Shown here: positions 39,984 to 51,137 of the stretch, piece after piece | How positions within the stretch are numbered: the first letter of the stretch is position 1 | Layout: each line of letters starts with the position of its first letter | Source of the DNA: Prevotella sp. | GTDB lineage: Bacteria; Bacteroidota; Bacteroidia; Bacteroidales; Bacteroidaceae | Direction of reading: 5' to 3' | NCBI GenBank assembly: GCA_017474925.1 | Contig: JAFVGN010000056.1 | Location: forward strand, 1 to 51,137 | Length of the DNA stretch: 51,137 nucleotides | The notes under the pieces: model-generated | What the model was told of the DNA's origin: nothing | Seen by the model: only the letters and a program-made list of their open reading frames with translations | The model's database searches: none | Translations under genes and position numbers: made by a program

Positions 39984-41300
39984 TTAAAGAAATTTCGTAT
40001 CTGTACCATCGTATTTTACTTTTGTTCGGAAAAAAAGGACGGTCTGCAACACGCCTCGTGCTATCAAATAGAGAATCATGGCCAGCCAAAGTCCGTGGTT
40101 CCCCATTTCAGGCATCAGCAGGAATACACCCGAGAAAAACACCGCTGCAGCGAGGCATGACGACTGTAGCATACCACGGCTATAAGTGATGCCGATAAAA
40201 AGGCCGTCCCACACGAAAGCAGCCACCCCCGCCACAGGGATCAGATAGGCCCACCACACATATTGGCGGGAAGCCTCGACCACCATCGGCTCATCAGTGA
40301 GCAATCGCAGGAAAGGCATACCTCCTATGATATAGACCGTTGAAAAAAGCATGGTCATCCCTGCTCCCCACAGAAACAGGCGACGTAACAGACGACGAAA
40401 TTCCACGGCATCTCCTGCCCCCCAGTATTTTCCTCCCAATGCTTCGCCAGCAAAAGCAAAGCCATCCATCACAAAAGAAAACAGCAGATAAAGTTGAAAG
40501 AGCAACGTATTGACCGCCAAGAGCGTGGAACCTTGCCGTGCACCCGCTGAAGTAAAATAGAGATTGACAGCCACCAGGAACAACGTTCGCAGGAAAATGT
40601 CCCTGTTCACCCGCAGGAAAGGTTTCAGTTCTTTCATCCGGGGTATGTTGATCGAAAACGGCAACTGCCGATAATTCCTCCAAAGCAGACCAGCAGCAGC
40701 CAGAAAACCGATATACTGTGCTACGCAAGTGCCAATAGCCACCCCCTCCACCTTCATGCCAAACCCATACACCAACGTCAACGAGGCCAATATATTGGCA
40801 ACATTCTGAACGACACTGACAAACATCAGGAGATGCGAGCTTTGCATTCCTATGAACCATCCGTTCAAGGAGTAGACGCCCAACATGGCCGGTGCTCCCC
40901 AAACCACAATATCAAAATAGGTAGAAGCCAACGAGCGTACGTCAGCCGTAGGGCCGACAAACCAAAGCATTAGCTCGCGTAACGGCCATTGAAATACCAA
41001 GATGAACATGGCCACCGCTAACGATACAAAGCCCGACCGTACCAAGAGTCGCGTCACTTCCACATCGTCGTTCCGTCCCAATGCCTGGGCAGTCAAGCCA
41101 CTTGTACCCATGCGCAGGAACCCAAACACCCAATAGAGCAGATTGAAAATCATAGCCCCAACAGCTACAGCACCGATGTAGGCAGCATCGCCCATGTGAC
41201 CTACAATGGCGGTATCCACCAGTCCCAACAGCGGTGTTGTTATATTAGACGCTATAGCTGGCAAGGCTATTTTAAGAATATGATTATCTATCCTGTTCAT
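39984..41300 (-). CDS. MATE family efflux transporter
   Basis: A 438-residue inner-membrane antiporter with about 12 helices. MATE signatures: LKIALPAIASNITTPLLGLVDTAIVGHMG near the start (seen in pieces, residues about 9-36), GTSGLTAQALGRND, and in the second half FAFAGEALGGKYWGAGD. It looks closest to the DinF branch. The ATG at 41300 is chosen because the strong promoter ends 13 bp before it; the longer open frame to 41378 would run through the promoter. Substrate unknown (cationic drugs, or other metabolites). Confidence 0.9.
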   Translation of the reverse strand: MNRIDNHILKIALPAIASNITTPLLGLVDTAIVGHMGDAAYIGAVAVGAMIFNLLYWVFGFLRMGTSGLTAQALGRNDDVEVTRLLVRSGFVSLAVAMFILVFQWPLRELMLWFVGPTADVRSLASTYFDIVVWGAPAMLGVYSLNGWFIGMQSSHLLMFVSVVQNVANILASLTLVYGFGMKVEGVAIGTCVAQYIGFLAAAGLLWRNYRQLPFSINIPRMKELKPFLRVNRDIFLRTLFLVAVNLYFTSAGARQGSTLLAVNTLLFQLYLLFSFVMDGFAFAGEALGGKYWGAGDAVEFRRLLRRLFLWGAGMTMLFSTVYIIGGMPFLRLLTDEPMVVEASRQYVWWAYLIPVAGVAAFVWDGLFIGITYSRGMLQSSCLAAAVFFSGVFLLMPEMGNHGLWLAMILYLIARGVLQTVLFFRTKVKYDGTDTKFL

Positions 41301-41309
41301 CGCTCTTCG

Positions 41310-41363
41310 CTGCAAAGTTACGAAAAGTCGCGCGAACCGCCAATTTTTTTTGAGCTTTTCCGA
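41310..41363 (-). promoter_or_regulatory. 54-bp extended promoter repeat, copy B (MATE gene)
   Basis: On the minus strand TCGGAAAAGCTCAAA, then TTG with a 20-bp spacer to TAACTTTG (41313-41320) and GCAG. It aligns ungapped with 2568-2621 at 45 of 54 positions. The ATG follows 12 bp after the -7 box, with GAAGAG as possible ribosome site. Confidence 0.8.
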
Positions 41364-41384
41364 ATTATTCACAGCCATCGCTCC

Positions 41385-41626
41385 CCACCGCGCAGCCGTT
41401 CAAAAACGTCATCGCGTCGTACCGCGCAGCCTTATAAACACTCATCAGGGCCGTCCCGCCTCGAAGAATAAAAGAATCATCAGGGCCGTAACCTGATACA
41501 AAAACCCACAAAAGGTTGTCGGCTTCTGCAACCTTTTGTTTTAGCCTCTCCCCCTTGACGGGGGCAGAGGTTTGGAGAGGGGGTGGAGCCCTCCTTAGGA
41601 CAAGGAGGGTCGGGTGGTTGTGAATT
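41385..41626. repeat. Composite intergenic repeat, copy 1
   Basis: Modules in order: REP-like palindromes (GCGCAGCCGTTCAAAAACG; CATCGCGTCGTACCGCG), an AAAAGGTTG hairpin, then G/C-block palindromes (CCTCTCCCCCTTGACGGGGG; CCCTCCTTAGGACAAGGAGG) and GGGTGGTTGTGAA. The same modules recur at 43.4, 46.0, 47.2, 48.3 and 49.3 kb. No gene is seen here; short open frames crossing it have no protein features. Confidence 0.85.
41508..41543 (+). terminator. AAAAGGTTG hairpin, copy 1
   Basis: An 11-bp perfect stem ACAAAAGGTTG / CAACCTTTTGT, 10-nt loop, then TTTTA. One of six copies in the accessory region. Confidence 0.7.
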
Positions 41627-42382
41627 TCATTTTTTATTCATTCTAACAAATGGAACCCTCAAACACACACCACCCGAAAAATACTGGCATTGCTGTAGCG
41701 AGACCTGCAACATCACATACCGGAACAAGGTACAATCCGCCCCTACATTCACCCCATCACCGTCGTATTCACCAATCACCCTCAAAGACCGGAAAAAAGA
41801 CGGTTGGAATGTCAGTCCACCAACGACGCCATTCCATTTCTTATTACTATCCAATTTCCAGTGTCTGTAAGCCAAATGTACTCCAATATATTGTTCCAGC
41901 AAATCGAAATGCTTACTCGCTGCCACATAATAATTCCGATAGTAATTGCTCTGTGACTCCCCTTTATTAAGAGACCCCCAAACGTCCTGGCCACCCACGA
42001 CTATCGATGGCCACCATTTTGATTCTCGCAATGGCTGCAATCTCAAGGAAAAATATCTGTCTTTGGTATAGAACCCCACTTCAGCATTTTTATCCTTATT
42101 CTTATGGAGCTTTATTAATGTATATCCATACCCCACTTCAATCCATCTAAACGGCTGCACCGACAAGTAGTTTGACCACGAGTTATATTTCTCGCCATCA
42201 AGAGTCATTTTGTCAGGTATCATGTGCTCGTTCAGATAGTGAGCACCTATATGTCCCACAGGCACTGTGTCCATGTCTGCAGAGGGCACACTGATCAAGC
42301 CACCCATGCCATAATACTGCTGTGCAAAGGCGCCATGCGTTAAAAACAACGCTACTATTATCGATATAATCCTGTACCCCAT
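41627..42382 (-). CDS. YjbH-like outer-membrane protein, N-terminal-half type
   Basis: A 251-residue exported protein (signal peptide RIISIIVALFLTHGAFAQ). It resembles the N-terminal half of YjbH: GLISVPSADMDTVPVGHIG near the start, then SVQPFRWIEVGYGYT, RYFSLRLQPLRESKWWPSIVVG, GGQDVWG and YYVAASKHF, alternating strands of a barrel. YjbH acts in exopolysaccharide export in Enterobacteria. The gene starts inside the end of the upstream gene (25-bp overlap), which resembles the C-terminal half of the same family. Last residues VRMNKK are encoded next to the repeat border. Confidence 0.65.
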   Translation of the reverse strand: MGYRIISIIVALFLTHGAFAQQYYGMGGLISVPSADMDTVPVGHIGAHYLNEHMIPDKMTLDGEKYNSWSNYLSVQPFRWIEVGYGYTLIKLHKNKDKNAEVGFYTKDRYFSLRLQPLRESKWWPSIVVGGQDVWGSLNKGESQSNYYRNYYVAASKHFDLLEQYIGVHLAYRHWKLDSNKKWNGVVGGLTFQPSFFRSLRVIGEYDGDGVNVGADCTLFRYVMLQVSLQQCQYFSGGVCLRVPFVRMNKK

Positions 42383-43230
42383 TTTACATTCGTTTGATAT
42401 TCACGTTCATTCTCTTCAGGATCTGTATGATACATTTTCATGGAGTATCCGTTCGCCTGGGCATTATAGGTCAGTCTGAAATTCGATGCGGGTCTCACCC
42501 TAAACTTCTTATCCGACTTCTTATAAGGCGGTATCATCATCACTACCTTGAATCCTCCTGCATATCGGTACGTATTACTAATGTATGGTGAGACATAAGG
42601 CTCAAAATACTGTGCAAAAGCGCCAATTGAACAATGTCTGAAGTGGCAATACACTTCACCCTCCACGCCATAGTCCTTGTTGATGTAGCGCCCACCACTA
42701 ATTCTGAACTCCGTGGTCCACTTGTCTATCCAGAAATTAGCACCCGCAACGGCGGTCACTGTCCAATCCTTTCCATCAAACGTCTGCTCTTTCGTTGAGC
42801 ACCACCATGAGCTTGTCAAGCCTGCTTGCGCCTGCAGCATAAGCCATGAGTTGACAGGCATCATCCATCTTGCATCCAAGCCGTATCGTTCGCGACTGAA
42901 CAATCCCCCCGTAAACTTCAGATGCTGGTCTTTGGCGAAAGCCAATTCTTTTGACAGCGCAACGATACCCAGTCTAAGACTGTTGTATTTATCAGGATAT
43001 CCATAGTTCACTGCCGCAAAGCTCAGCTGTCCTGCCGTTTCCCAACCATGTCCCATGTTCCATTTCACTCCTGGGGTCAAATTGATCAACACGTTATAGA
43101 GCCTCTTAAAATCCGTGTCATTGTAGTTAAGTTCCGCTCCACAGAACAAATCCACCTGCCCTGCTTTTTCTTGGCCATAGCCAGAAAGAATTCCAAACAA
43201 TAGAAGTATAATGATCGTCCCTCTCCTCAT
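42358..43230 (-). CDS. YjbH-like outer-membrane protein, C-terminal-half type
   Basis: A 290-residue exported protein (TIIILLLFGILSGYGQ). The strand-rich sequence ends like YjbH C-terminal barrels: GRYINKDYGVEGEVYCHFRH (about 195-214), IGAFAQYFEPYV, then GGFKVVMMIPPYKK. The ATG at 43230 is preferred to an upstream in-frame start at 43278, which would precede or overlap the -7 box. Together with the overlapping next gene it makes a YjbH-type pair in reversed domain order. Probably involved in surface polysaccharide export; inference from family only. Confidence 0.6.
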   Translation of the reverse strand: MRRGTIIILLLFGILSGYGQEKAGQVDLFCGAELNYNDTDFKRLYNVLINLTPGVKWNMGHGWETAGQLSFAAVNYGYPDKYNSLRLGIVALSKELAFAKDQHLKFTGGLFSRERYGLDARWMMPVNSWLMLQAQAGLTSSWWCSTKEQTFDGKDWTVTAVAGANFWIDKWTTEFRISGGRYINKDYGVEGEVYCHFRHCSIGAFAQYFEPYVSPYISNTYRYAGGFKVVMMIPPYKKSDKKFRVRPASNFRLTYNAQANGYSMKMYHTDPEENEREYQTNVKWGTGLYR

Positions 43231-43266
43231 CACATCTTTTTCATCTTTACTGAATTTATTTAGGAG

Positions 43267-43274
43267 GCAAAAGT
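43267..43274 (-). promoter_or_regulatory. -7 element of the YjbH-like pair
   Basis: TACTTTTG reading leftwards after a T-run (TTTTTTTG), 36 bp before the chosen ATG. Confidence 0.55.
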
Positions 43275-43364
43275 ACAAAAAAACATTTAAAACGCACTAT
43301 TTTACCAAAAATAATTTTCCAGAACGCAATATTTTACCATCATTCCCGACTCAAAACGCACAAA

Positions 43365-43398
43365 AAGAGGGCTGGCAGCATAAACTGTCAGTCCTCTT
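43365..43398 (-). terminator. Hairpin with 14-bp stem, copy 1
   Basis: AAGAGGGCTGGCAG / CTGTCAGTCCTCTT pairs over 14 bp including two G-U pairs, 6-nt loop; on the minus strand a TTTTTG tail follows. No gene lies directly upstream on that strand other than smalltalk, which has its own copy. Confidence 0.6.
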
Positions 43399-43477
43399 CG
43401 TCTTACATCAGCCATCATCCATCGGCCATCAGCCTTATAAAAAACGTCATCGCGTCGTCCCGCGATACCAAAACACC

Positions 43478-43513
43478 ACAAAAGGTTGTCGGCCTCTGCA
43501 ACCTTTTGTTTTA
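43478..43513 (+). terminator. AAAAGGTTG hairpin, copy 2
   Basis: Same 11-bp stem as copy 1; the loop reads TCGGCCTCTG; T-tract TTTT follows. Confidence 0.65.
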
Positions 43514-43660
43514 GCCTCTCCATATAGGGAGAGGTTGGGTGAGGGTGGATGCTTCTTTTACTTCTTTTCTTCGCGCCGAAGAAAAGGAGATATTGGGGTC
43601 TGGGGGTATCACCCAGTGTCAGCACCCTCGAAATCTTCGGGTTCCGGTCATATTTGGACG

Positions 43661-43703
43661 AACCAAAAAGAGGGCTGGCAGCATTGAACTGTCAGTCCCC
43701 TTT
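43661..43703 (-). terminator. Terminator of the smalltalk gene (14-bp hairpin, copy 2)
   Basis: Near-duplicate of 43365-43398 with one mismatch in the stem; on the minus strand it is followed by CTTTTTGG, about 50 bp after the smalltalk stop. Confidence 0.65.
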
Positions 43704-43751
43704 GTCGTTTTTCGGGAAAGTTTTCGAGGAACTCACCATCTATCTTCCATC

Positions 43752-43868
43752 CTACATCGTGAACGGTCCGTGTCCCATGCAGCTGGTGGTTCCCAGTGCC
43801 GTCAGGGCAGCGGTAGCAGCCGCGATGCAGATGCGGAGGATAACCTCCCATACAGAATTCTTTTTCAT
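43752..43868 (-). CDS. Smalltalk miniprotein
   Basis: A 38-residue protein. Start MKKNSVWEVILRICIAAATAALTALGTTSC (given here in pieces by position: basic head, then helix of residues 8-30) and end MGHGPFTM. A positively charged N-terminus, one hydrophobic Ala-rich helix and a short tail match the 'smalltalk' family of tiny Bacteroidales proteins, usually found beside HU-type DNA-binding protein and amidase genes. Neither neighbour is present here. Function unknown; Cys30 in TTSC could be a lipidation site. Too short for most gene finders. It is closed by a hairpin terminator. Confidence 0.8.
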   Translation of the reverse strand: MKKNSVWEVILRICIAAATAALTALGTTSCMGHGPFTM

Positions 43869-44083
43869 AGCATCATATTTTTAGGTTTATAATCGGTTTT
43901 GTTTTTCGAGGAAGGAGGAAGGAGTAACGAGTGTCTGCGGTTCATAAAAATGAAAACAGTACCAGACCAGGGATCCTCTTGAAGCACATACCGAATGTAG
44001 TTTATCATTGCATCCCACTTATATCGAAAGCTCACATTGCACTCGCAATACTTGTATCGCATTCCTGCTGTAAGACTAAGCAT
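43865..44083 (-). pseudogene. IS66 TnpB, C-terminally truncated
   Basis: The first 50 or so residues match IS66 TnpB (start LSLTAGMRYKYCECNVSFRY, then DAMINYIRYVL and DPWSGTVFIFMNRR). Normal length is about 115 residues; the match stops near RRHSLL and the rest (PPSSKNKTDYK) is encoded by low-complexity GGAAGGAG-type repeat. It overlaps tnpA by 8 bp as usual for IS66. TnpC is missing, so the element is dead. Confidence 0.72.
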
Positions 44084-44414
44084 AATTACGAATTCGCATT
44101 AAACGTTGGACAATGGTCACTAAGTCACTCGGAGTAATCTCACGGACTGTCAGCTTCAAACCCTTTGGGAAACTCAGCATAACCTCTTTTATATAACTCT
44201 CTGTTGATGGCATAGGATGAGTCGATTCATTTGACTCGGGAATTTCAGTGATAACAAGATCACCACACTGGACCTGCTCTTCATAAGACTCCATCTCAAA
44301 CTTCTCCTGCTTCAACGCCTCTACCATCTCATAGTAGTCCAACATGTTTTCGCGGCAGGAGTCCGCTACCCTCACCTTCTTGTGACTCTTTTGCAAGTCA
44401 CGGAATTGCTTCAC
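44076..44414 (-). pseudogene. IS66 TnpA-like gene split by IS1595
   Basis: Residual 112-residue frame with an IS66-OrfA-like end (FPKGLKLTVREITPSDLVTIVQRL). It now opens at a GTG immediately left of the IS1595 element. Removing the element and one copy of the TCTTTT target duplication joins it to an ATG at 45443 and restores MEIKDYVKQFRDLQK in frame, so the insertion hit about codon 4-5. The old promoter TAATTTTG survives at 45477-45484. Confidence 0.75.
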
Positions 44415-44424
44415 ATAATCTTTT

Positions 44425-44450
44425 ATTGGGTTAGGCGCTTAGAGCGCACT
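44425..44450 (+). repeat. IS1595 left inverted repeat
   Basis: Begins ATTGGGTTAGGCGC and ends AGAGCGCACT; pairs with 45404-45429. Confidence 0.88.
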
Positions 44451-44489
44451 AATAATTGTTAATATTCGATTATTCTGTATAATAGTTGC

Positions 44490-44497
44490 TACCTTTG
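44490..44497 (+). promoter_or_regulatory. -7 element of the IS1595 transposase, leaderless arrangement
   Basis: TACCTTTG ends only 4 bp before the ATG at 44502, so the mRNA should begin at or very near the start codon. Confidence 0.7.
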
Positions 44498-44501
44498 TAG
44501 C

Positions 44502-45392
44502 ATGTTAGAAAGATATCAATTCCGAGGCGTGAACTCACTACGTTTTTACCAACATTTTGTCTCTGAGGAGTCCTGTTACGAATACCTCTCTGGAATCAAA
44601 TGGGAAGGTGGTCAGTATGTTTGCAAGAAATGTGGCAACACTCACTATTGCAAAGGTTGGCTTCCGTATTCTCGCAGATGTACCAGGTGCAAGTATGACG
44701 AAAGCCCAACCGCAGGCACCATGTTTGACAAGTGCAAGTTCTCGATTCTGCTTGCTTTCCACATAGCCTTCAAGATCAGCACTAAGAAGAAAGGAATGTC
44801 TTCTGAAGAACTGTCCGAGGAATATGAACTCCGTCAAAAGACCTGCTGGGAATTTAAATGGAAAATACAGCAGGCGATGCAAAGTTCTGGAAACTATCCA
44901 CTTACGGGAAAAGTCCATGTAGACGAGTTCTTCGTTGGCGGTGCAGAGGAAGGGGTGTTCGGAAGAGGAAGTAAGAACAAACGCCTTGTCGTCGTTGCCC
45001 TTGAGATTGTCAATGAAGGCTTTGGTCGCGCGTATGCCGAGGTTATTGACGATGCTTCGGCCAAGTCGCTTCGTCCATTCTTTGAACGAAGGATAAGCAA
45101 GAACGCTGAAATTATAACGGATGAGTGGAATGGCTATAAACCACTGAAGAAGGATTATCCGAAACTTACCCAAGTCCCGTCTGACAAAGGCAAAAACTTT
45201 CCGCAATTGCACATACACATTATGAATATCAAGGGGTGGCTCAGAGGCATCCACCATCATTGCTCGAAAGAGAGGCTTCAGGGGTACTTGGACGAGTACC
45301 ACTTTCGGTTCAATAGGCGAGCATCCAAGGACACAATCTTCGATGTGCTCATTCGTAGAAAGATGTTTTACGAACCAAAACGCCTAAAATAG
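44502..45392 (+). CDS. IS1595-family (ISXO2-like) transposase
   Basis: A 296-residue transposase. The N-terminal zinc ribbon has paired cysteines (CKKCGNTHYC and CTRCKYDE), followed by the ISXO2-like DDE domain: Asp in VHVDEFFVGG (about 146), Asp in IITDEWNGYK (about 206), and the late HHHCSKERLQGYLDEYHFRFNRR with the Asn/Glu/Lys positions of the family. No frameshift or internal stop, so the element may be active. It starts 4 bp after its promoter -7 box. Confidence 0.93.
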   Translation: MLERYQFRGVNSLRFYQHFVSEESCYEYLSGIKWEGGQYVCKKCGNTHYCKGWLPYSRRCTRCKYDESPTAGTMFDKCKFSILLAFHIAFKISTKKKGMSSEELSEEYELRQKTCWEFKWKIQQAMQSSGNYPLTGKVHVDEFFVGGAEEGVFGRGSKNKRLVVVALEIVNEGFGRAYAEVIDDASAKSLRPFFERRISKNAEIITDEWNGYKPLKKDYPKLTQVPSDKGKNFPQLHIHIMNIKGWLRGIHHHCSKERLQGYLDEYHFRFNRRASKDTIFDVLIRRKMFYEPKRLK

Positions 45393-45403
45393 GGCATTTC
45401 GCA

Positions 45404-45429
45404 AGTGCGCTCTAAACGCCTAACCCAAT
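45404..45429 (-). repeat. IS1595 right inverted repeat
   Basis: AGTGCGCTCT ... CGCCTAACCCAAT; reverse complement matches the left repeat except at one base. Confidence 0.88.
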
Positions 45430-45476
45430 TCTTTTATTTCCATATTGCGCTTAACCTTAGTGAATAAAATCTTGCG

Positions 45477-45484
45477 CAAAATTA
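45477..45484 (-). promoter_or_regulatory. Residual promoter of the IS66 tnpA-like gene
   Basis: TAATTTTG reading leftwards, 33 bp before the original ATG at 45443. It now drives only a few codons before the IS1595 end. Confidence 0.55.
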
Positions 45485-45509
45485 GAAAAAATTTATCTCA
45501 ACAAAATCC

Positions 45510-45644
45510 GGTCAGGTCCAAGGTTCGGACGCTTACCAGCTCATCCTCGAAACCGCCAACGGTAAGGATTACTGGATTCACGTCTCCTGCCGCAAGAACC
45601 GCAAGAAGAACCGCCACCAAGTCATCAGGTATCTCAAGAAGTAG
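45510..45644 (+). pseudogene. C-terminal fragment of an unknown basic protein
   Basis: An open frame ending in TAG at 45642-45644 encodes GQVQGSDAYQLILETANG, then KDYWIHVSCRKNRKKNRHQ and VIRYLKK. Codon use (AAG, AAC, CGC, CTC) is gene-like and a good terminator follows, so this looks like the tail of a real gene whose 5' part was removed at the border of the IS66 remnant. The basic end suggests nucleic-acid binding; family not recognised. Confidence 0.45.
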
Positions 45645-45656
45645 CTATCAATTCAC

Positions 45657-45690
45657 ACCTCCACTCGCCTCTCAGCTAGTGGAGGTTTTC
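45657..45690 (+). terminator. Terminator of the truncated gene
   Basis: Perfect 9-bp stem ACCTCCACT / AGTGGAGGT, 12-nt loop, then TTTCTCT. Confidence 0.8.
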
Positions 45691-45756
45691 TCTAATTCTT
45701 GACAGATTTTGAGCCAATTTTTGTTTGAATTTTGAGCGAAGCGACCCTAATTCTCC

Positions 45757-45864
45757 AATTGACTTTCCCCTCCGGGCCGTCGAGCTAAACCTTCTCAAAT
45801 TCTTGATTAATCTTGCCGTCGGGCGCAAGCATTTTCAAAGCGTTACAATTTGTAACGGTTTCAT
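45757..45864. repeat. Shared segment S, copy 1
   Basis: Shares AATTGACTTTCCCCTCCGGG and the following CCGTCGAGCTAAACC, and at its other end GGGCGCAAGCATT plus the palindrome CGTTACAATTTGTAACG (45841-45857), with 48786-48949. The two copies differ in the middle. Confidence 0.75.
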
Positions 45865-45869
45865 TGCTG

Positions 45870-45901
45870 CAAAAATACGACTTTTACTTGAAACCGCCAA
45901 A
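45870..45901 (-). promoter_or_regulatory. Promoter in unit R1
   Basis: TTTG (45898-45901), 20-bp spacer, TATTTTTG (45870-45877), reading leftwards. Downstream it reaches only segment S with a nine-codon ORF (MKPLQIVTL, 45835-45864); no longer gene follows, as if a cassette had been lost. Confidence 0.65.
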
Positions 45902-46072
45902 TGTTTGCCACTTTTTCATGCGGATATGTAATCCACCTGCAGATCATCTGAGCGCGCAGCCGTCAAAGACTTCATCGCGTCGTCCCGCGATACCATTTGG
46001 TAAAGGTTATCGCTTCCCAACGCGCAGCCCTATAAAACACTCATCAGGGCCGTAACCTGATACCAAAACACC

Positions 46073-46108
46073 ACAAAAGGTTGTCGGCTTCTGCAACCTT
46101 TTGTTTTA
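46073..46108 (+). terminator. AAAAGGTTG hairpin, copy 3
   Basis: Same stem and TCGGCTTCTG loop as copy 1, then TTTTA. Confidence 0.65.
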
Positions 46109-46257
46109 GCCTCTCCCCCTTGACGGGGGCAGAGGTTTGGAGAGGAGGTGGTCCCTCCTTAGGATAAGGAGGGGCGGGTGGTTGTGAAAGAACCCTTCAA
46201 GGGTGAAGGGGACTGGGGATGTTCGAAAAAAGGGATGTTCGATAAACGCAATATGTA

Positions 46258-46536
46258 TTACTTCTCGAAATACCCTTTTTCGCTATACTGCGACCAGCGG
46301 AGGTACATCTCCTGATAATGATCCTTGATGAACTCTGAAATCTTGGCAATCTCACGGTCATTAAGAATACCACGGTTCTGAAGCATGGTATCACCGTTGC
46401 TCTTTACGAAGAATTTGGCAGAGCCTCCCTCTGTGAGTTTACTGTCACTGGCATGCACATGCATACACTCCACAACACAGAAAGACGTAAAATACAAGTA
46501 ATAGCCAGCTACCTTATAATCGTAATACTTTGGCAT
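46258..46536 (-). CDS. DUF4160 protein
   Basis: A 92-residue cytoplasmic protein. DUF4160 features: GYYLYFTSFCVVECMHVHA (11-29, with the conserved HVHA), GSAKFFVKSNG, then GILNDREIAKISEFIKDHY and MYLRWSQY. The usual NE-HNPPH segment is altered to FCVVECMH. DUF4160 genes are often paired with DUF2442 or similar small genes and have been suspected as toxin-antitoxin-like, but the function is not established. It is the last gene of a three-gene operon, 3 bp after the previous stop. Confidence 0.72.
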   Translation of the reverse strand: MPKYYDYKVAGYYLYFTSFCVVECMHVHASDSKLTEGGSAKFFVKSNGDTMLQNRGILNDREIAKISEFIKDHYQEMYLRWSQYSEKGYFEK

Positions 46537-46539
46537 CGT

Positions 46540-46761
46540 TCAGTCCTCCATGTATTTTAGGTTCTGCTGCAAGTAGCGACTTGCTATGGAAAGTTCAATA
46601 TCGTCCATTGTAGTTTCAAGCACTTCTCCACTAGCACTAAAAACAACGGCCTTATCGGGGCTATTCAGATTAAGCACGTGGATACACTCATCCTTTCGGG
46701 TAAAGGCATATCCATTGATGATGATGTCGGCCTCATCGGCAATGGTCTTGATATCAGGCAT
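46540..46761 (-). CDS. Small protein of unknown function (DUF4160 operon, gene 2)
   Basis: A 73-residue acidic protein starting MPDIKTIADEADIIINGYAF (ATG at 46761; an upstream GTG at 46776 lies deeper in the previous gene). It contains short strands (CIHVLNLNSPDKAVVFS, GEVLETTMDDIE) and a C-terminal helix. No family recognised. It overlaps the end of gene 1 by 8 bp and is followed by the DUF4160 gene after 3 bp, so the three are translated together. Confidence 0.7.
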   Translation of the reverse strand: MPDIKTIADEADIIINGYAFTRKDECIHVLNLNSPDKAVVFSASGEVLETTMDDIELSIASRYLQQNLKYMED

Positions 46762-47053
46762 AAGCAATACGTACACTTTTAATAGATTTCAAGAAAGAGG
46801 CAGAGTCAATGTACAGTCCCTCGAGGATGGGCTTCAGGTCGATATATTCCTCCTCGGGCTCAGCATTATGGCTGTATTTGGCCAGCACCACCAGATAGCC
46901 GTCGTCCCACTTCACAACATCAACATACCGTTCCAAGCTATAAGGCGCCCGGAAACGGATATTATAGCCGCCAAAACTAAAGGCGGTAAAGCCATCTGCG
47001 CTGCTGAGCAGGGCTTCGTTACTTTGGGGAGTTGTCTTGTTACAACCTGTCAT
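46754..47053 (-). CDS. Small protein of unknown function (DUF4160 operon, gene 1)
   Basis: A 99-residue protein, start MTGCNKTTPQSNEALLSSAD. The ATG at 47053 lies 16 bp after the R2 promoter; the TTG start six codons upstream falls in the -7 box and is rejected. Distinct blocks: FSFGGYNIRFRAPYSLERYV, VVKWDDGYLVVLAKYSH and EEEYIDLKPILEGLYID. I recognise no function; the two-strand FGGYNIRFR / GYLVV pattern suggests a small alpha/beta fold. It opens the operon with DUF4160. Confidence 0.7.
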   Translation of the reverse strand: MTGCNKTTPQSNEALLSSADGFTAFSFGGYNIRFRAPYSLERYVDVVKWDDGYLVVLAKYSHNAEPEEEYIDLKPILEGLYIDSASFLKSIKSVRIAYA

Positions 47054-47068
47054 CTTTCTTATTTTTTG

Positions 47069-47100
47069 CAAAAATACGAATTATTTCTGAAACAGCCAAA
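47069..47100 (-). promoter_or_regulatory. Promoter in unit R2 (DUF4160 operon)
   Basis: TTTG (47097-47100), 20-bp spacer, TATTTTTG (47069-47076): a full consensus match reading into the three-gene operon 16 bp downstream. Confidence 0.85.
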
Positions 47101-47273
47101 TGTTTGCCACTTTTTCATGCGGACATGTAATCCACCTGCAGATCATCTGAGTGCGCAGCCCTATAAAACACGCCATCGCGTCGTCCCGCGATACCATTTG
47201 GTAAAAGGTTATCGCTTCCCAACGCGCAGCCGTTCAAAAACGTCATCGCGTCGTCCCGCGATACCAAAACACC

Positions 47274-47312
47274 ACAAAAGGTTGTCGGCTTCTGCAACCT
47301 TTTGTTTTTTTC
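47274..47312 (+). terminator. AAAAGGTTG hairpin, copy 4
   Basis: Same stem and loop, with a strong TTTTTTT tail on the plus strand. Confidence 0.7.
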
Positions 47313-47527
47313 CTTCCCTGAGGGGAGGAAATACAAAGGAGAGGTGGAGACCCTTCAAAGGTGAAGGGGACTGGGGTTGTTCGAAAAAACCTTTTGTTTT
47401 AGTCTCTCCCCCTTGACGGGGGCAGAGGTTTGGAGAGGAGGTGGTCCCTCCTTAGGACTAGGAGGGGCGGGTGGTTGTGAAAGAACCCTTTAAGGGTGAA
47501 GGGGACGGGGGGTAAGTCTTCATTTTC

Positions 47528-48025
47528 TTAGTCAGGCTTGCCAAAGTCATTTTGATGCCCCTCGGCTATCATATCGGCATAACACTCGTGTTCCTTCCTA
47601 TAAATGACATGAAAGAAGAATGGTTCTGAAACACCCTCTACTTCAACAACGTGGTTACAAAAATCATGTAAATGATGCTGGGTCATGTATCTATTGAACA
47701 TTGCAGAAAACAATCTACTACGATATTCCTGAACAGGAATTTTCTTATTTGACGGAACAAAATGGATGAAATCGCAGAAGAAGCTAAGTATAACATTCTG
47801 ATGTCTCTGCATGATATTTGCTAAACAGTCCTCTATCTGAGCCAAAACATGATGACCTGTAACATTCTGTCCTTTCACACGTGCTAAACCAACCTCAATA
47901 ACCTCTATATCTTTACTGGCTAAGAAGTCAAGTAAGACATTTGATATAAGGCCACTCCGTTCTGTGGTAAACTGTAGCTTATATTCATCACCACTTTCTG
48001 AGGTGATGGTATATACCTCGTTCAT
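47528..48025 (-). CDS. 165-aa protein of unknown function
   Basis: Start MNEVYTITSESGDEYKLQF. Strand-rich first 40 residues, then helices (NIMQRHQNVILSFFCDFIHF, QEYRSRLFSAMFNRYM) and many histidines in the C-terminal half (QHHLHDFCNHVV). It ends EGHQNDFGKPD beside the repeat. No membrane segment or known motif. Its ATG overlaps the stop of a 48-aa gene (ATGA), so the two form a coupled pair under promoter R3. A toxin-antitoxin-like or immunity-type pair is possible but not shown. Confidence 0.7.
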   Translation of the reverse strand: MNEVYTITSESGDEYKLQFTTERSGLISNVLLDFLASKDIEVIEVGLARVKGQNVTGHHVLAQIEDCLANIMQRHQNVILSFFCDFIHFVPSNKKIPVQEYRSRLFSAMFNRYMTQHHLHDFCNHVVEVEGVSEPFFFHVIYRKEHECYADMIAEGHQNDFGKPD

Positions 48026-48168
48026 TTCAGATTGATGACCTTTGTTGGTTTAACCTCGTCTGAGCACAATTTTTCAAGCCACAGGTATTTTTGTACGCCT
48101 ATCTTGCGTATATGCTCCTCAAGTTTCCTTGATGGATTCTTTATAACTGTTGTCTTTGTGTAGCTCAT
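48022..48168 (-). CDS. 48-aa small protein coupled to the 165-aa gene
   Basis: Encodes MSYTKTTVIKNPSRKLEEHI followed by RKIGVQKYLWLEKLCSDEV and KPTKVINLK. It is basic and helical in the middle. Support for reality: it lies 28 bp after the R3 promoter -7 box, uses an ATG, and ends in a 4-bp ATGA overlap with the next gene. Function unknown; size and coupling resemble antitoxin or leader genes. Confidence 0.62.
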   Translation of the reverse strand: MSYTKTTVIKNPSRKLEEHIRKIGVQKYLWLEKLCSDEVKPTKVINLK

Positions 48169-48195
48169 ATTGCAATCTTCTTATATAGTCCGCTG

Positions 48196-48227
48196 CAAAA
48201 ATACGAATTATTTCTGAAACAGCCAAA
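48196..48227 (-). promoter_or_regulatory. Promoter in unit R3 (48-aa/165-aa pair)
   Basis: TTTG (48224-48227), 20-bp spacer, TATTTTTG (48196-48203), reading into the 48-aa gene. Confidence 0.83.
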
Positions 48228-48330
48228 TGTTTGCCACTTTTTCATGCGGACATGTAATCCACCTGCAGATCATCTGAGTGCGCAGCCCTATAAAACACGC
48301 CATCGCGTCGTCCCGCGATACCAAAACACC

Positions 48331-48368
48331 ACAAAAGGTTGACGGCCTCTGCAACCTTTTGTTTTTTT
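48331..48368 (+). terminator. AAAAGGTTG hairpin, copy 5
   Basis: Same stem; the loop reads ACGGCCTCTG; TTTTTTT tail on the plus strand. Confidence 0.68.
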
Positions 48369-48490
48369 CCTTCCCTGAGGGGAGGAAATACAAAGGAGAG
48401 GTGGAGCCGGTGGAGCCCCTTTAGGCAAAGGGGACGAGGGATTTCGAAAAAGTCAATTCCTTTTGGTTCTTTTCGAAAAGAATACATCAG

Positions 48491-48739
48491 TCAAGGAGGG
48501 TCGGGTGGTTGTGAAAAAGGTAATACCTTAATCTCAGCAATCTTTGCCTCATACTCGGCAGCCATTGCTTTCATGCGCTCCTCATAATCAGCTTTCAATG
48601 CCGCAGTAGCCTTGGCGACAGCCTCTTCTATCAGACGGTCAACATCTGACTTGCGGATCATATCCGTAGCTATCTGATTAAGCAGGCGCAGGACTTCACT
48701 GTCCTTCTCCTGAATCTTGTTTTCTTGAGCATTAGCCAT
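48491..48739 (-). CDS. Coiled-coil ORF whose 3' end lies in a repeat
   Basis: An 82-residue protein, MANAQENKIQEKDSEVLRLL then a charged Ala/Glu/Lys-rich helix (RLIEEAVAKATAALKADYEE, MAAEYEAKIAEIK) that should form a coiled coil. The last eleven residues (VLPFSQPPDPP) are encoded by the GGGTGGTTGTGAAAAAGG part of the composite repeat, so the original C-terminus was probably replaced when the repeat arrived. It could also be the tail of a once larger protein. No promoter is clear. Confidence 0.5.
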   Translation of the reverse strand: MANAQENKIQEKDSEVLRLLNQIATDMIRKSDVDRLIEEAVAKATAALKADYEERMKAMAAEYEAKIAEIKVLPFSQPPDPP

Positions 48740-48785
48740 AACAGCTCAAACGTTAATTGTTAACCGTTAACTTGAACAATCCTCT

Positions 48786-48949
48786 AATTGACTTTCCCCT
48801 CCGGGCCGTCGAGCTAAACCTTCTCAAATTCTTGATAGATTTTGAATCAGTTTTTCGAGCGATTTTGAGCTACGCAACCCCAGCCAAGCTCGCTTGAACA
48901 TTGTAGGGCGCAAGCATTATCAAAGCGTTACAATTTGTAACGGCTTCAT
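48786..48949. repeat. Shared segment S, copy 2
   Basis: Second copy of the segment at 45757-45864. It has the same palindrome CGTTACAATTTGTAACG (48926-48942) and the same nine-codon ORF MKPLQIVTL on the minus strand (48920-48949), with Lys as AAG instead of AAA. The middle of the copy is longer and different. Confidence 0.75.
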
Positions 48950-48995
48950 GCTCTGATACCGCTCTTCCTGTGCTTACGACAATAGAACGTTTACA

Positions 48996-49106
48996 TCATT
49001 TTCCACAGCAATGCTTGAACTTTTTGCCAGAACCGCAAGGACACAGGTCGTTTCTCCCCACTTTCTTGTTCGTTAAGGTCTTTATTTCTGCTATACACGT
49101 ACACAT
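48996..49106 (-). CDS. SEC-C motif miniprotein
   Basis: A 36-residue protein, [16 protein letters not shown] followed by [20 protein letters not shown]. The second part is a complete SEC-C metal-binding motif (CxCxGSGxKxKxCC), as at the end of SecA and in many small proteins, binding zinc. Apart from two further Cys (positions 2 and 4) there is nothing else. The gene has its own promoter 28 bp upstream. Either a genuine zinc miniprotein or the last exon-like remnant of a longer SEC-C protein. Confidence 0.65.
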
Positions 49107-49133
49107 GTATCAGTTCCTTTCTCATTTAGATTG

Positions 49134-49141
49134 CAAAGGTA
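49134..49141 (-). promoter_or_regulatory. -7 element of the SEC-C gene
   Basis: TACCTTTG reading leftwards after TTTTCG, as at the other strong promoters of the window. Confidence 0.65.
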
Positions 49142-49194
49142 CGAAAAGTTTTGTAAACTTGTTCGTTTTTGCACGGAAATTTATTTTAAGCCGC

Positions 49195-49755
49195 CAATTT
49201 ATCCCTTTTTCACAACCACCCGCCCCTCCTTATCATAAGGAGGCACCACTACTTTTCGAAATCCCCCGGCTCCACCACTTTTTTCGAACATCCCTTTTTC
49301 GAACAACCTCAGTCCCCTTCACCCTTGAAGGGGGTCCACCTCTCCCCGTATCCCCTCTCCTCAGGCGAGGGGAAAAACAAAAGGTTGCAGAAGCCATCAA
49401 CCTTTTGTAGTGTTTTGGTATCGCGGGACGACGCGATGAAGTCTTTGACGGCTGCGCGTTGAGAAGCGAAAACCTTTACCAAATGGTATCGCGGGACGAC
49501 GCGATGGACTTTTTATAAGGCTGCGCGGTGGCAGAGCGATGGCGTTTTTTGAATGGCTGCGCGTTGGGAAGCGATGGCGTTTTTTAAAACGGCTGCGCGG
49601 GACAGAGCGATTGGCTTTTTCTTCTTCGAGGAACGAGGAACGAGGAAGGAGGAACGAGAACACTCCGAGGGCAGAAATATACCCGCAAAACATATCTCCT
49701 TCCTCGTTACTCCTTACTCCTTCCTCGAAAACTGGACATTTCTCCTTCCTCGAAA
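49195..49755. repeat. Composite intergenic repeat, copy 6, inverted and extended
   Basis: The modules occur in opposite orientation to copies 1-5: CACAACCACCCGCCCCTCC first, G/C blocks, the AAAAGGTTG hairpin (49377-49408), then at least four REP-like palindromes (GGTATCGCGGGACGACGCG; GGCTGCGCGTTGGGAAGCG) and a low-complexity GAGGAACGAGGAAGGAGG stretch with its complement (CTCCTTCCTCG) to 49755. No gene seen. Confidence 0.85.
49377..49408 (-). terminator. AAAAGGTTG hairpin, copy 6 (inverted)
   Basis: Same 11-bp stem with loop CAGAAGCCAT, opposite orientation; it lies downstream of the UpxY-type gene on the minus strand. Confidence 0.55.
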
Positions 49756-49761
49756 ACCACC

Positions 49762-50436
49762 TTAGTCGTTTGTTTCGACTTTTTCCAGGAAGTGGGAGGG
49801 GATGTAGGCGGTGGTTAAGCCGGACTGCAGGCCCTTGATATAGATGACTACACGCTTTTGTCGGGCGATGCGGGCAACACGGCCCGTAATGCCTTCGAAG
49901 GGACCAAAGGTGACACGCACCAACTCGTCAGACACGAAATGGCAGGTCTTCAAATCGACCTCCATCACATGCTCGTCGAGCAAGGCCGTGGCCTTGACCA
50001 ACGGCTCCATGTCCCGGGAACTAATCACCAACGGGGGATTGTAACCATTGACGCCTGTATCGAAATGGTTGTAATAGTAGGTGGTGTAACGCGACTCCCT
50101 GGAGTTCCTGACATACTTCTCGGCTTCTTGCTCCGTCACGTAGGCAAAAAGAAGGTTCATGAAAGGAAGCAGCTTTCTCTGCTTCTTGCCTGTCTCCTTG
50201 TTACGGATGTCTTTCCAGACCTTGGCCAGATAGACGTAGGTGCCGTCTTCAATGATGGCGTCTGCAACGGCCTGAGCCTTACCATACTTGATACGGAGAA
50301 CATACCACCCTCTTTCTTCGCATGGGGCATATCTTACCGACACCCCTGTCTTTGAGCTTTTCGCTTCGGGGAAGACAAAGGAGGCAAATCCTTTGCTGTT
50401 TTCATCCTTGATACTAGCATTATCCAACGCGTTCAT
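49762..50436 (-). CDS. UpxY-type NusG family antiterminator
   Basis: A 224-residue NusG paralogue. An unusual 45-residue N-terminal extension precedes the NGN domain (RGWYVLRIKYGKAQAVADAI, then FMNLLFAYVTEQEAEKYV), and a C-terminal KOW domain follows (VRVTFGPFEGITGRVARIA). In Bacteroides, UpxY proteins are the first genes of capsular polysaccharide operons and prevent premature termination within them. Here the downstream region has no glycosyltransferases within 8 kb, only repeats and small genes, then YjbH-like genes. Upstream about 210 bp remain to the IS1380-type gene; no consensus promoter or invertible-promoter repeats are seen there. Confidence 0.85.
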   Translation of the reverse strand: MNALDNASIKDENSKGFASFVFPEAKSSKTGVSVRYAPCEERGWYVLRIKYGKAQAVADAIIEDGTYVYLAKVWKDIRNKETGKKQRKLLPFMNLLFAYVTEQEAEKYVRNSRESRYTTYYYNHFDTGVNGYNPPLVISSRDMEPLVKATALLDEHVMEVDLKTCHFVSDELVRVTFGPFEGITGRVARIARQKRVVIYIKGLQSGLTTAYIPSHFLEKVETND

Positions 50437-50647
50437 ATCGGACTTCCTATATCATTATAGCTCTCTTTTAGTATAACCTAAAATCCGCAACTAATAGTCA
50501 TGCGGACTAATTTTGCCGTCTTGCCATCCATCTGCGGAATCTCCAGCCACGACAGGTGCAATTACGTGTTGTCCTCGCCCAGTTTCCCCTTACCCCGTCA
50601 AGCATTATAGGGGCTTTATGCTGTCTTTGAGCCGCAAAGTCTGTTTC

Positions 50648-51137
50648 TCATCCGTCAGCAAGTGCAAAAGGGTTCAGATATGATTGGTTGTCCGTGTAGA
50701 TGTTCAGTTCATAGTGCCTTGCCGTCCTTATCCATTTGGCAGGCACGCTGATGAACTTGAACACAAAGGCTTTGATGCGGCTTGTCTTCTTCAGTCCGAA
50801 TGCTTTCGTGTCAAGCCTCCCCATGAGGAACTTGTAGAAGTTGTGTATGATTGCCGTCAGCATCAGGAACACGGTGTTCTCTGCCATGAAGGACTTTGGC
50901 AGCCTTGCCCATCCGAAGCCATTGTTCATGTCGTCAAAGATACGTTCCTTTCCGCCTCTGAGGTTATAGAACTCCACAATCTCGCGATTGGTTGATGTAT
51001 AGTAGTTGGTCAGGATGCAGCGGTAAGTGTACTCTCCTTCCCACAAGTCCTGCTCACCGTCCATGCGACGCTCCCGCTGTATGACGAGGCGATATGCCTT
51101 GCCCTCCCATTTCTCCGTGATGATGGAATTCAGTTCA
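50648..51137 (-). CDS. IS1380-type transposase, C-terminal part (cut by window edge)
   Basis: The frame is open to the right edge (…TEKWEGKAYRLVIQRERRMDGEQ), with the true start outside. The Y-x2-R-x3-E block is YNLRGGKERIFDD, followed by NGFGWARLPKSFMAENTVFLML and ISVPAKWIRTARHYELNIY, typical of the IS1380 C-terminus. It is a different member from that at the left window edge. Its stop at 50648 faces the upstream region of the UpxY-type gene, so the insertion may have removed that gene's promoter. Confidence 0.88.
   Translation of the reverse strand, partial: ELNSIITEKWEGKAYRLVIQRERRMDGEQDLWEGEYTYRCILTNYYTSTNREIVEFYNLRGGKERIFDDMNNGFGWARLPKSFMAENTVFLMLTAIIHNFYKFLMGRLDTKAFGLKKTSRIKAFVFKFISVPAKWIRTARHYELNIYTDNQSYLNPFALADG

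Follow-up and report, generated by a model that had tools for sequence, protein, structure and literature searches.

Unrelated small gene blocks share promoter-side leaders in a Prevotella array, which suggests but does not prove block exchange

An array of small gene blocks, separated by six copies of one composite repeat, lies on a 51,137-bp contig of Prevotella sp. (contig C14, the window of this study). The strongest pattern in this array is on the promoter side of the spacer and not in the structured element that the spacer also carries: unrelated blocks of one host stand behind a common leader in seven species, and weakly in an eighth, and most leaders are host-specific. Similar arrays in related species mostly have another spacer, which suggests, without proving, that blocks are swapped. 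We tentatively favor the explanation that the arrays are made of small transcription units with like spacers in each host, and that homologous recombination in those spacers adds, removes and swaps the blocks. The assembly (2.28 Mb, 66 contigs) is 64% complete and was compared between species only, with 397 other sampled genomes drawn from the larger genus, the best relative having 73% DNA identity at the MatE gene. In what follows, G labels denote genus genomes (G000, the own genome; G167, Prevotella sp. tf2-5; G073, RUG693), L labels fetched loci, and C labels contigs of the own genome.

The six copies, five direct and one inverted, were recovered alike by repeat search, self-BLAST and a covariance model, in agreement with the initial annotation of this DNA. 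Their cores lie at 41,475-41,543, 43,445-43,513, 46,039-46,108, 47,241-47,309 and 48,298-48,366 on the plus strand and at 49,373-49,441 on the minus strand. The repeat is less uniform than that annotation had it, since the core is present in all six copies and the promoter leader in copies 3, 4 and 5 only. Because CATCGCGTCGTCCCGCGATACCA has 19 matches with at most three mismatches in the assembly, 18 of them exact, and the reversed control pattern has none, the repeat is not a product of chance. All these matches fall on C14, C15/C34 and C30, except one on C42 with two mismatches, and by the covariance model the own genome has ten full copies, one of which is carried by the duplicate contig C34, so that a genome-wide count confines the core to the array and two other places, C15 and C30, at low copy number. 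The longest identical stretch extends over 130 nt at 100% (47,067-47,196 and 48,194-48,323). The copies are mosaic, copy 4 being closest to copy 5 in the leader, to C30 in the hairpin and to copy 3 in the block GC2. In the copies at 41,475-41,543 and 46,039-46,108 the stem of the repetitive extragenic palindrome (REP) is ATCAGG/CCTGAT instead of ATCGCG/CGCGAT, the entire stem being replaced with pairing kept.

In the own genome, the trio DUF7724/DUF7723/DUF4160, the pair of 48 and 165 aa (p48/p165), a PIN-type pair on C15 and the gene remnant at copy 3 have a common leader plus REP (130 nt at 100%; 145-175 nt at 83%). Most of these pairs end at TATTTTTGCA; similarity ends in most of them one or two bases beyond TATTTTTGC, the Bacteroidetes-type -7 box by its consensus, and each gene's own 5' leader then begins. 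On C15 the order is a broken UpxY remnant, REP plus leader, the PIN-type pair and a gene for a DegT aminotransferase; the latter is split there into two overlapping frames of 240 and 278 aa (L029 6,187-7,717), and is a single frame of 434 and 454 aa in G055 and G099, respectively. C15 (L029) and C34 (L030) share 8,182 bp at 99.99% and diverge at the REP array, and C30 terminates just beyond two repeat copies.

A similar arrangement is seen with other spacer sequences in other hosts. In G081, 146-178 nt are shared at 89-97% upstream of the trio, of a 69-aa gene that reads like an antitoxin and lacks a Pfam match, and of a DUF3791 gene; the stretch also occurs ~0.5 kb upstream of a UpxY-like gene, and a Bro-N gene shares 123 nt of this spacer. 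In G162 one spacer is common to a HEPN gene with its partner, a PolyVal kinase, small open reading frames (ORFs) and p48/p165. A SocA pair and DUF7724 share 231 nt at 95% in G167, SocA and p48/p165 share 80 nt at 90% in G073 and a different stretch of 109 nt at 93% in G209, the trio and a p165-like gene share 80 nt at 91% in G052, and sharing is weak in G203 (56 nt at 84%). At least one unrelated pair in seven of the eight species has a shared stretch that ends 1-20 nt past the -7 box: 1-13 nt past TTTGC, in at least one pair each, in G000, G052, G081, G162, G167 and G203, and ~20 nt past it in G073. The distance is mostly 8-9 nt in G081, 1-2 nt in G167 and G203, ~8 nt in G052, and 2 and ~13 nt in two pairs of G162. 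Between hosts, the leaders showed a weak match of G162 to G203 (41-57 nt at 77-80%) and a likeness among the p48 leaders of G073, G282 and G209; the exact leader pattern had no match in the contigs of named genomes. When three spacers were folded, that of G162 gave a stem of -23.9 kcal/mol with a T-run (z -6.5), that of G081 a hairpin without a T-run (z -5.6) and that of G000 hairpins with z of -1.6 to -3.7. Three genes of tf2-5, read as ugd, rmlC and a 367-aa gene, also share a leader (L079 5,176-5,385, 8,369-8,436 and 12,380-12,591; 68-213 nt, 87-100%).

With the same criteria applied to all, a leader shared with an unrelated gene was seen for 2 of 106 control genes (a single pair), compared with 4/22 p48/p165 loci (Fisher 0.008; 3/21 without the window, 0.03) and 4/15 trio loci (Fisher 0.002; 3/14 without the window, 0.011), in a count that omits the G073 and G052 pairs, includes one weak trio match in L109 (49 nt, 82%), and may lose matches through several p48 and trio start coordinates that are off by some bases. 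With the positional criterion removed, any repeat of the upstream 260 nt occurs at 14 of the 22 p48/p165 and 8 of the 15 trio loci.

The blocks themselves recur with different leaders. Of 398 genus genomes, counting the own one, 38 have relatives of p165 and 15 have DUF7723, and p48/p165, the trio and the PIN pair appear elsewhere in other combinations, some between such repeats. In G073 the order is a UpxY-like gene, element, SocA pair, element, p48/p165, element and, further on, flippase and glycosyltransferase-like genes; in G103 it is p48/p165, PIN pair, element, a second small pair, a nucleotidyltransferase and element. RUG195 has two SocA-type pairs with an element between them, and the metagenome-assembled genome (MAG) SRR12081303_bin.15 has an element, a UpxY-like gene, small genes resembling a toxin-antitoxin (TA) pair by weak Pfam matches, and a double element. 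Genes are truncated at or near the repeats: in G282 an intact four-helix gene comes after p48/p165, but in the block of G073, 93% identical to that of G282, only 28 codons of the four-helix gene are left, the cut lying directly at the element. For the core gene ffh, intended as a yardstick for block transfer, G209 had no match and G282 no genuine one. In the window, the gene to the left of MatE is conserved in 6 of 8 fetched MatE loci of relatives and no window gene to its right is present in any of the eight; thus, the array starts where synteny stops. Elsewhere in tf2-5, a defense-type island (L231 11,628-19,313) holds AbiEi-like/AbiEii genes, a SocA pair, DUF7724, AbiH and a reverse transcriptase.

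In the explanation that we tentatively favor, such an array would be modular, with small transcription units, most of them pointing the same way, next to a UpxY-like gene and genes of polysaccharide type. The spacer between two units would consist of hairpins, terminator-like for the preceding unit, followed by a putative promoter for the next; within one host the spacer would be shared and the gene block between two spacers would differ. With near-identical spacers on both sides of each block, RecA-type homologous recombination could remove or duplicate a block, or replace it with the block that a same-species donor carries between the same spacers, and blocks arriving from elsewhere would land downstream of a resident spacer. 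The spacer of this species may also have accreted the REP-like palindrome and the covarying hairpin found elsewhere in the genus. If this is true, gut bacteria would have a simple, integrase-free route to gain or drop putative defense or TA genes with immediate expression and insulation, which would help to explain the build-up of small gene blocks beside Bacteroidales polysaccharide loci.

The structured element of the spacer is a REP-like palindrome followed by a hairpin with a near-constant loop and a changing stem. Both stems covary strongly among 23 aligned copies from the own genome and ten others (94.6% of cells paired; 13 of 17 pairs changed on both sides, a level that 0/500 shuffles reach), and no Rfam family matches the element; for the whole window only a tRNA reached its gathering score, and matches within 41,300-49,760 were all far below theirs. 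The element occurs in 22 of 200 genus genomes, own included, with 1-8 matches in each of the others, and a search of 84,980 species with the exact REP pattern gave 31 loci, whose titles all read Prevotella, Prevotellaceae, Xylanibacter or Bacteroidales. Of 58 copies listed by hand, 42 have a TTTT run after the palindrome on its minus strand and 10 have one after the hairpin, a pattern compatible with a terminator or a REP-like element. A UpxY-like gene lies within 1 kb of 5 of 48 element clusters (22 genomes; 0.08 expected) and within 10 kb of 9 (0.5 expected), in a count that includes the own genome, excludes REP-only rows, duplicate contigs (C34 and G162:C44) and 11 of 41 NusG rows taken as housekeeping NusG (positions 1-149 or 1-147, 55-63 bits), and ignores contig ends in the expected number. 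A custom UpxY model adds one case, G074, together with the UpxY remnant on C15. Other element sites, named partly by reading, are at DegT aminotransferase (G000, G055, G099), rmlC, ugd, sugar transferases and sodB, and the element also stands between an HU-like gene and an amidase gene. The sole exact match of the element pattern in viral contigs was at L271 3,165-3,186, on a 129.5-kb contig. Phage cargo was considered as a source of the blocks and set aside, no relative of p165 or DUF7724 being confirmed in viral contigs.

Several results weigh against exchange in the spacers. No deletion, exchange or movement of a block was seen in the genomes compared. By the criterion used, 18/22 p48/p165 and 11/15 trio loci have no shared leader, and over all genes shared leaders are only mildly commoner at element loci (10 pairs in 649 kb, compared with 4 in 623 kb of other loci). 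Two other pairs of G162 stop ~20 nt before TTTGC, upstream of the promoter, and the shared stretch of G209 ends just before a -7-like box, so that it need not be a promoter. The leader shared by SocA and p48 in G073 is also the p48 leader in G282 (93%); it thus seems to be p48's own and SocA seems to have acquired it, and this leader may have moved together with p48, SocA then receiving a copy. In one MAG, elements lie between the core genes folK, rpsO and typA (named by reading); the window has these three genes in the same region without elements. Gene order showed no preference for breaking at the structured element: among same-orientation orthologues, the neighbor across the element was conserved in 8/19 comparisons and that on the opposite side in 4/23 (38 pairs, 12 of opposite orientation being excluded from the counts; the comparisons are not independent). 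All conserved cases come from the HU and amidase families, with 0/4 and 0/7 outside these, so the test rests largely on two gene families and has low power. Block shuffling exactly at the structured element accordingly found no support in this weak test, and the earlier cassette interpretation is partly supported, with shared leaders, mosaic copies and recurring blocks in its favor, and with neither a preferential break of order at the element nor a block seen moving.

These same results fit another account, in which loose intergenic space collects either a terminator or a REP-like repeat (non-autonomous, and either mobilized in trans or simply duplicated), and defense-type genes and insertion sequence (IS) debris gather in the same variable island with no exchange. 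Synteny is not preferentially broken at elements, they occur between core genes in one MAG, and the order of HU-like gene, element and amidase is kept in three genomes. Moreover, the 72 element clusters are distributed over tandem gaps (37), convergent gaps (15) and divergent gaps (3), with 17 unclassed (14 at a locus edge and 3 far), and tandem gaps show no strand preference (19 opposite, 16 same). This account, however, leaves unexplained both the promoter end common to unrelated genes, in which identity often stops shortly beyond the -7 box, and the difference of most leaders between hosts; we regard it as possible but doubtful. The kept order involves an N-acetylmuramoyl-L-alanine amidase (L234, L256, L268, L270, L252), with G018 represented three times. 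At L251 4,807-5,054, a tandemly repeated 42-nt unit adjoins an element that has typA on one side and a NusG-like gene of 526 aa on the other.

It is well established that small mobile elements can carry outward promoters, and the spacer could be a mobile or copied promoter, with hairpins, that was inserted or converted upstream of several genes in each host, in which case the genes need not have moved. The occurrence of the spacer upstream of unrelated genes with a similar end point, and of the p48 leader upstream of SocA in G073, would be expected under it. Nevertheless, we found no terminal repeats, target duplications or empty sites in a search that was not exhaustive, the leader is present at only four sites of the assembly, short promoter-like matches aside, and gene content is also non-syntenic, which indicates that genes did move. 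We therefore consider this route unlikely. It would be less likely still, and improbable in our estimate, that TA or defense blocks cross species without promoters as recombinase-free cassettes and are joined to the terminator-promoter spacer of the recipient where transcription starts or shortly beyond; the preferred joining point would then perhaps be the start of the transcript or the open promoter complex, the spacer would act as a species-specific socket, and arrays would grow by socket duplication. The end points just past TTTGC in the seven hosts given above are the basis of this idea, and the finding that p48 of G282 has the leader of G073 too argues against it.

Compared with known systems, the array resembles integron arrays in its small unrelated genes, mostly in one orientation, and in related spacers able to fold, but no intI integrase was found among the Pfam-scanned ORFs of the region (39,984-51,064; the rest of the genome was not searched). 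Integron cassettes are mostly without promoters, whereas the spacer here carries a putative promoter and stands upstream of each block. Capsule loci led by UpxY are known in Bacteroides, and here too a UpxY-like NusG paralog is near polysaccharide-type genes (YjbH in the window, flippase and glycosyltransferase-like genes in G073); unlike in those loci, small gene blocks lie between them.

The closest described kind is that of the recombinase-associated acquired interbacterial defense (rAID) arrays of Bacteroidales, for which the mode of gene gain is also unsettled (PMC12247911). A site-specific recombinase might act in trans, integron- or rAID-like, with part of the spacer as its site; in its favor are co-oriented short genes, conserved intergenic motifs and Bacteroidales hosts, traits that rAID arrays have likewise (PMC12247911). 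In the window, the small genes are co-oriented on the minus strand but have 36-165 codons, and conserved spacers are present. Of the rAID trait of at least two co-directional genes below 41% GC, p48/p165 has 38.4% and the trio 45.2%. rAID arrays have a tyrosine recombinase upstream; the scan just mentioned found no integrase or tyrosine recombinase, as the initial annotation had noted for integrases, nor did ten proteins scanned from the G081 and G167 loci include one, whole genomes not being searched. The contents here are also TA-type and unknown pairs instead of recognized type VI secretion system immunity genes, a UpxY-like gene adjoins the array, and spacers of different hosts share little sequence. 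We consider such a recombinase very improbable.

The palindrome resembles the CGTC-tagged REPs, reported in Bacteroidetes among others, in being short and intergenic with a stem mostly beginning AT and a tail ACC(A) (PMC3733652). Its stem has 6 bp, with an AT start in most copies, compared with 8-9 bp beginning AT and a loop of 4-5 there (PMC3733652); the CGTC/TGTC tag is present in just 5 of 23 aligned copies (w2, w4 and three of G073), and it differs further in having about 1-10 copies per genome and a second hairpin with a covarying stem. Structured intergenic repeats together with Y1 transposase-like ORFs in the genome recall the REPs with associated tyrosine transposases (RAYT, TnpA-REP), subclass 2.6 of Bacteroidetes (PMC6006769). 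An origin of the REPs from such transposases was rejected, since three Y1_Tnp loci of the own genome (1.9-2.8 kb fetched each) held no significant match to the composite. By description only, the repeat may also be likened to a miniature inverted-repeat transposable element with minisatellite of Porphyromonas gingivalis, another composite repeat in a Bacteroidales genome (PMC4596501). The open-access literature that was searched gave no description of such arrays.

Features of the array and its flanks in the window (positions in the 51,137-bp contig)
Feature	Position	Strand	Basis or remark
MatE-family transporter, end of conserved left flank	39984..41300	-	PF01554
Composite repeat copy 1: variant REP, hairpin, GC block; no promoter leader	41377..41624	+	repeat search, self-BLAST, covariance model
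YjbH-like protein, first part	41627..42382	-	PF06082, E 3e-16
YjbH-like protein, second part	42358..43230	-	PF06082, E 0.003, below cut-off
Composite repeat copy 2: REP and hairpin	43430..43521	+	self-BLAST, covariance model
Smalltalk protein, 38 aa	43752..43868	-	NF033879, E 1e-11
IS66 remnant (left end, orfA, truncated orfB)	43932..45538	-	80-90% DNA identity to intact IS66 in L157
IS1595-type element interrupting the IS66 remnant	~44,428-45,419 (transposase 44,502-45,392, +)		PF12762
Repeated gene fragment, read as Bro-N-type remnant	45749..45864	-	second copy 48,778-48,949
Composite repeat copy 3: promoter leader (reads on -), two REPs, hairpin, GC blocks	45868..46231	+	
Trio DUF7724 / DUF7723 / DUF4160	46258..47053	-	PF24849, PF24848, PF13711
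Composite repeat copy 4, complete; leader (reads on -) and REP at 47,067-47,196	47067..47511	+	
48-aa / 165-aa pair (p48/p165)	47528..48168	-	
Composite repeat copy 5; leader (reads on -) and REP	48194..48516	+	
IS66 TnpC fragment	48491..48739	-	48,530-48,729: 94% DNA identity to TnpC of intact IS66, L157
36-aa SEC-C peptide	48996..49106	-	PF02810, E 1e-11
Composite repeat copy 6, inverted; no leader	49208..49620	-	
UpxY-like NusG paralog (antiterminator family)	49762..50436	-	NF033644, 84 bits, E 1e-23

The named non-IS genes are all on the minus strand, as had been noted earlier, with a possible gene end on the plus strand, judged by eye, at about 45,520-45,643. NCBIfam and Pfam confirmed the smalltalk and SEC-C genes; the supposed separate coiled-coil gene turned out to be the IS66 TnpC fragment, and two of the supposed blocks consist in part of IS66 debris. 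The UpxY-like gene scores below the curated NF033644 cut-off of 100 bits, and PF02357 is also just below its cut-off. Among nine block proteins, PADLOC gave no match at E 0.01. For p165, a sequence comparison with the PDB gave no match and a fold search none at E 0.001, its best hits being mostly acetyltransferase-like with TM-scores below 0.5; DUF6169 matches weakly in 4 of 19 family members (best E 0.007), so that p165 may at best be a distant DUF6169 relative with a weak acetyltransferase-like fold match.

The proteins of the intact IS66 in L157 match PF03050 and PF05717, and the pieces in the window are 80-94% identical to it in DNA. A 112-aa ORF at 44,076-44,414, with 43,932-44,083, corresponds to IS66 orfA/orfB (90%), and the IS1595-type element sits within orfA. 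These pieces and the TnpC part are 3 kb apart in scrambled order, and each stops at a repeat or close to one: TnpC homology stops about 14 nt from copy 5, and orfB homology ends at a 29-nt purine-rich repeat (43,903-43,931) that recurs inverted at 49,703-49,731 (97%). Part of the Bro-N-type fragment, 45,810-45,865, has a 94% match within an L100 ORF whose product looks like the Bro-N protein of L099, and part of the fragment occurs twice in L100, at 12,730-12,782 and 13,186-13,241.

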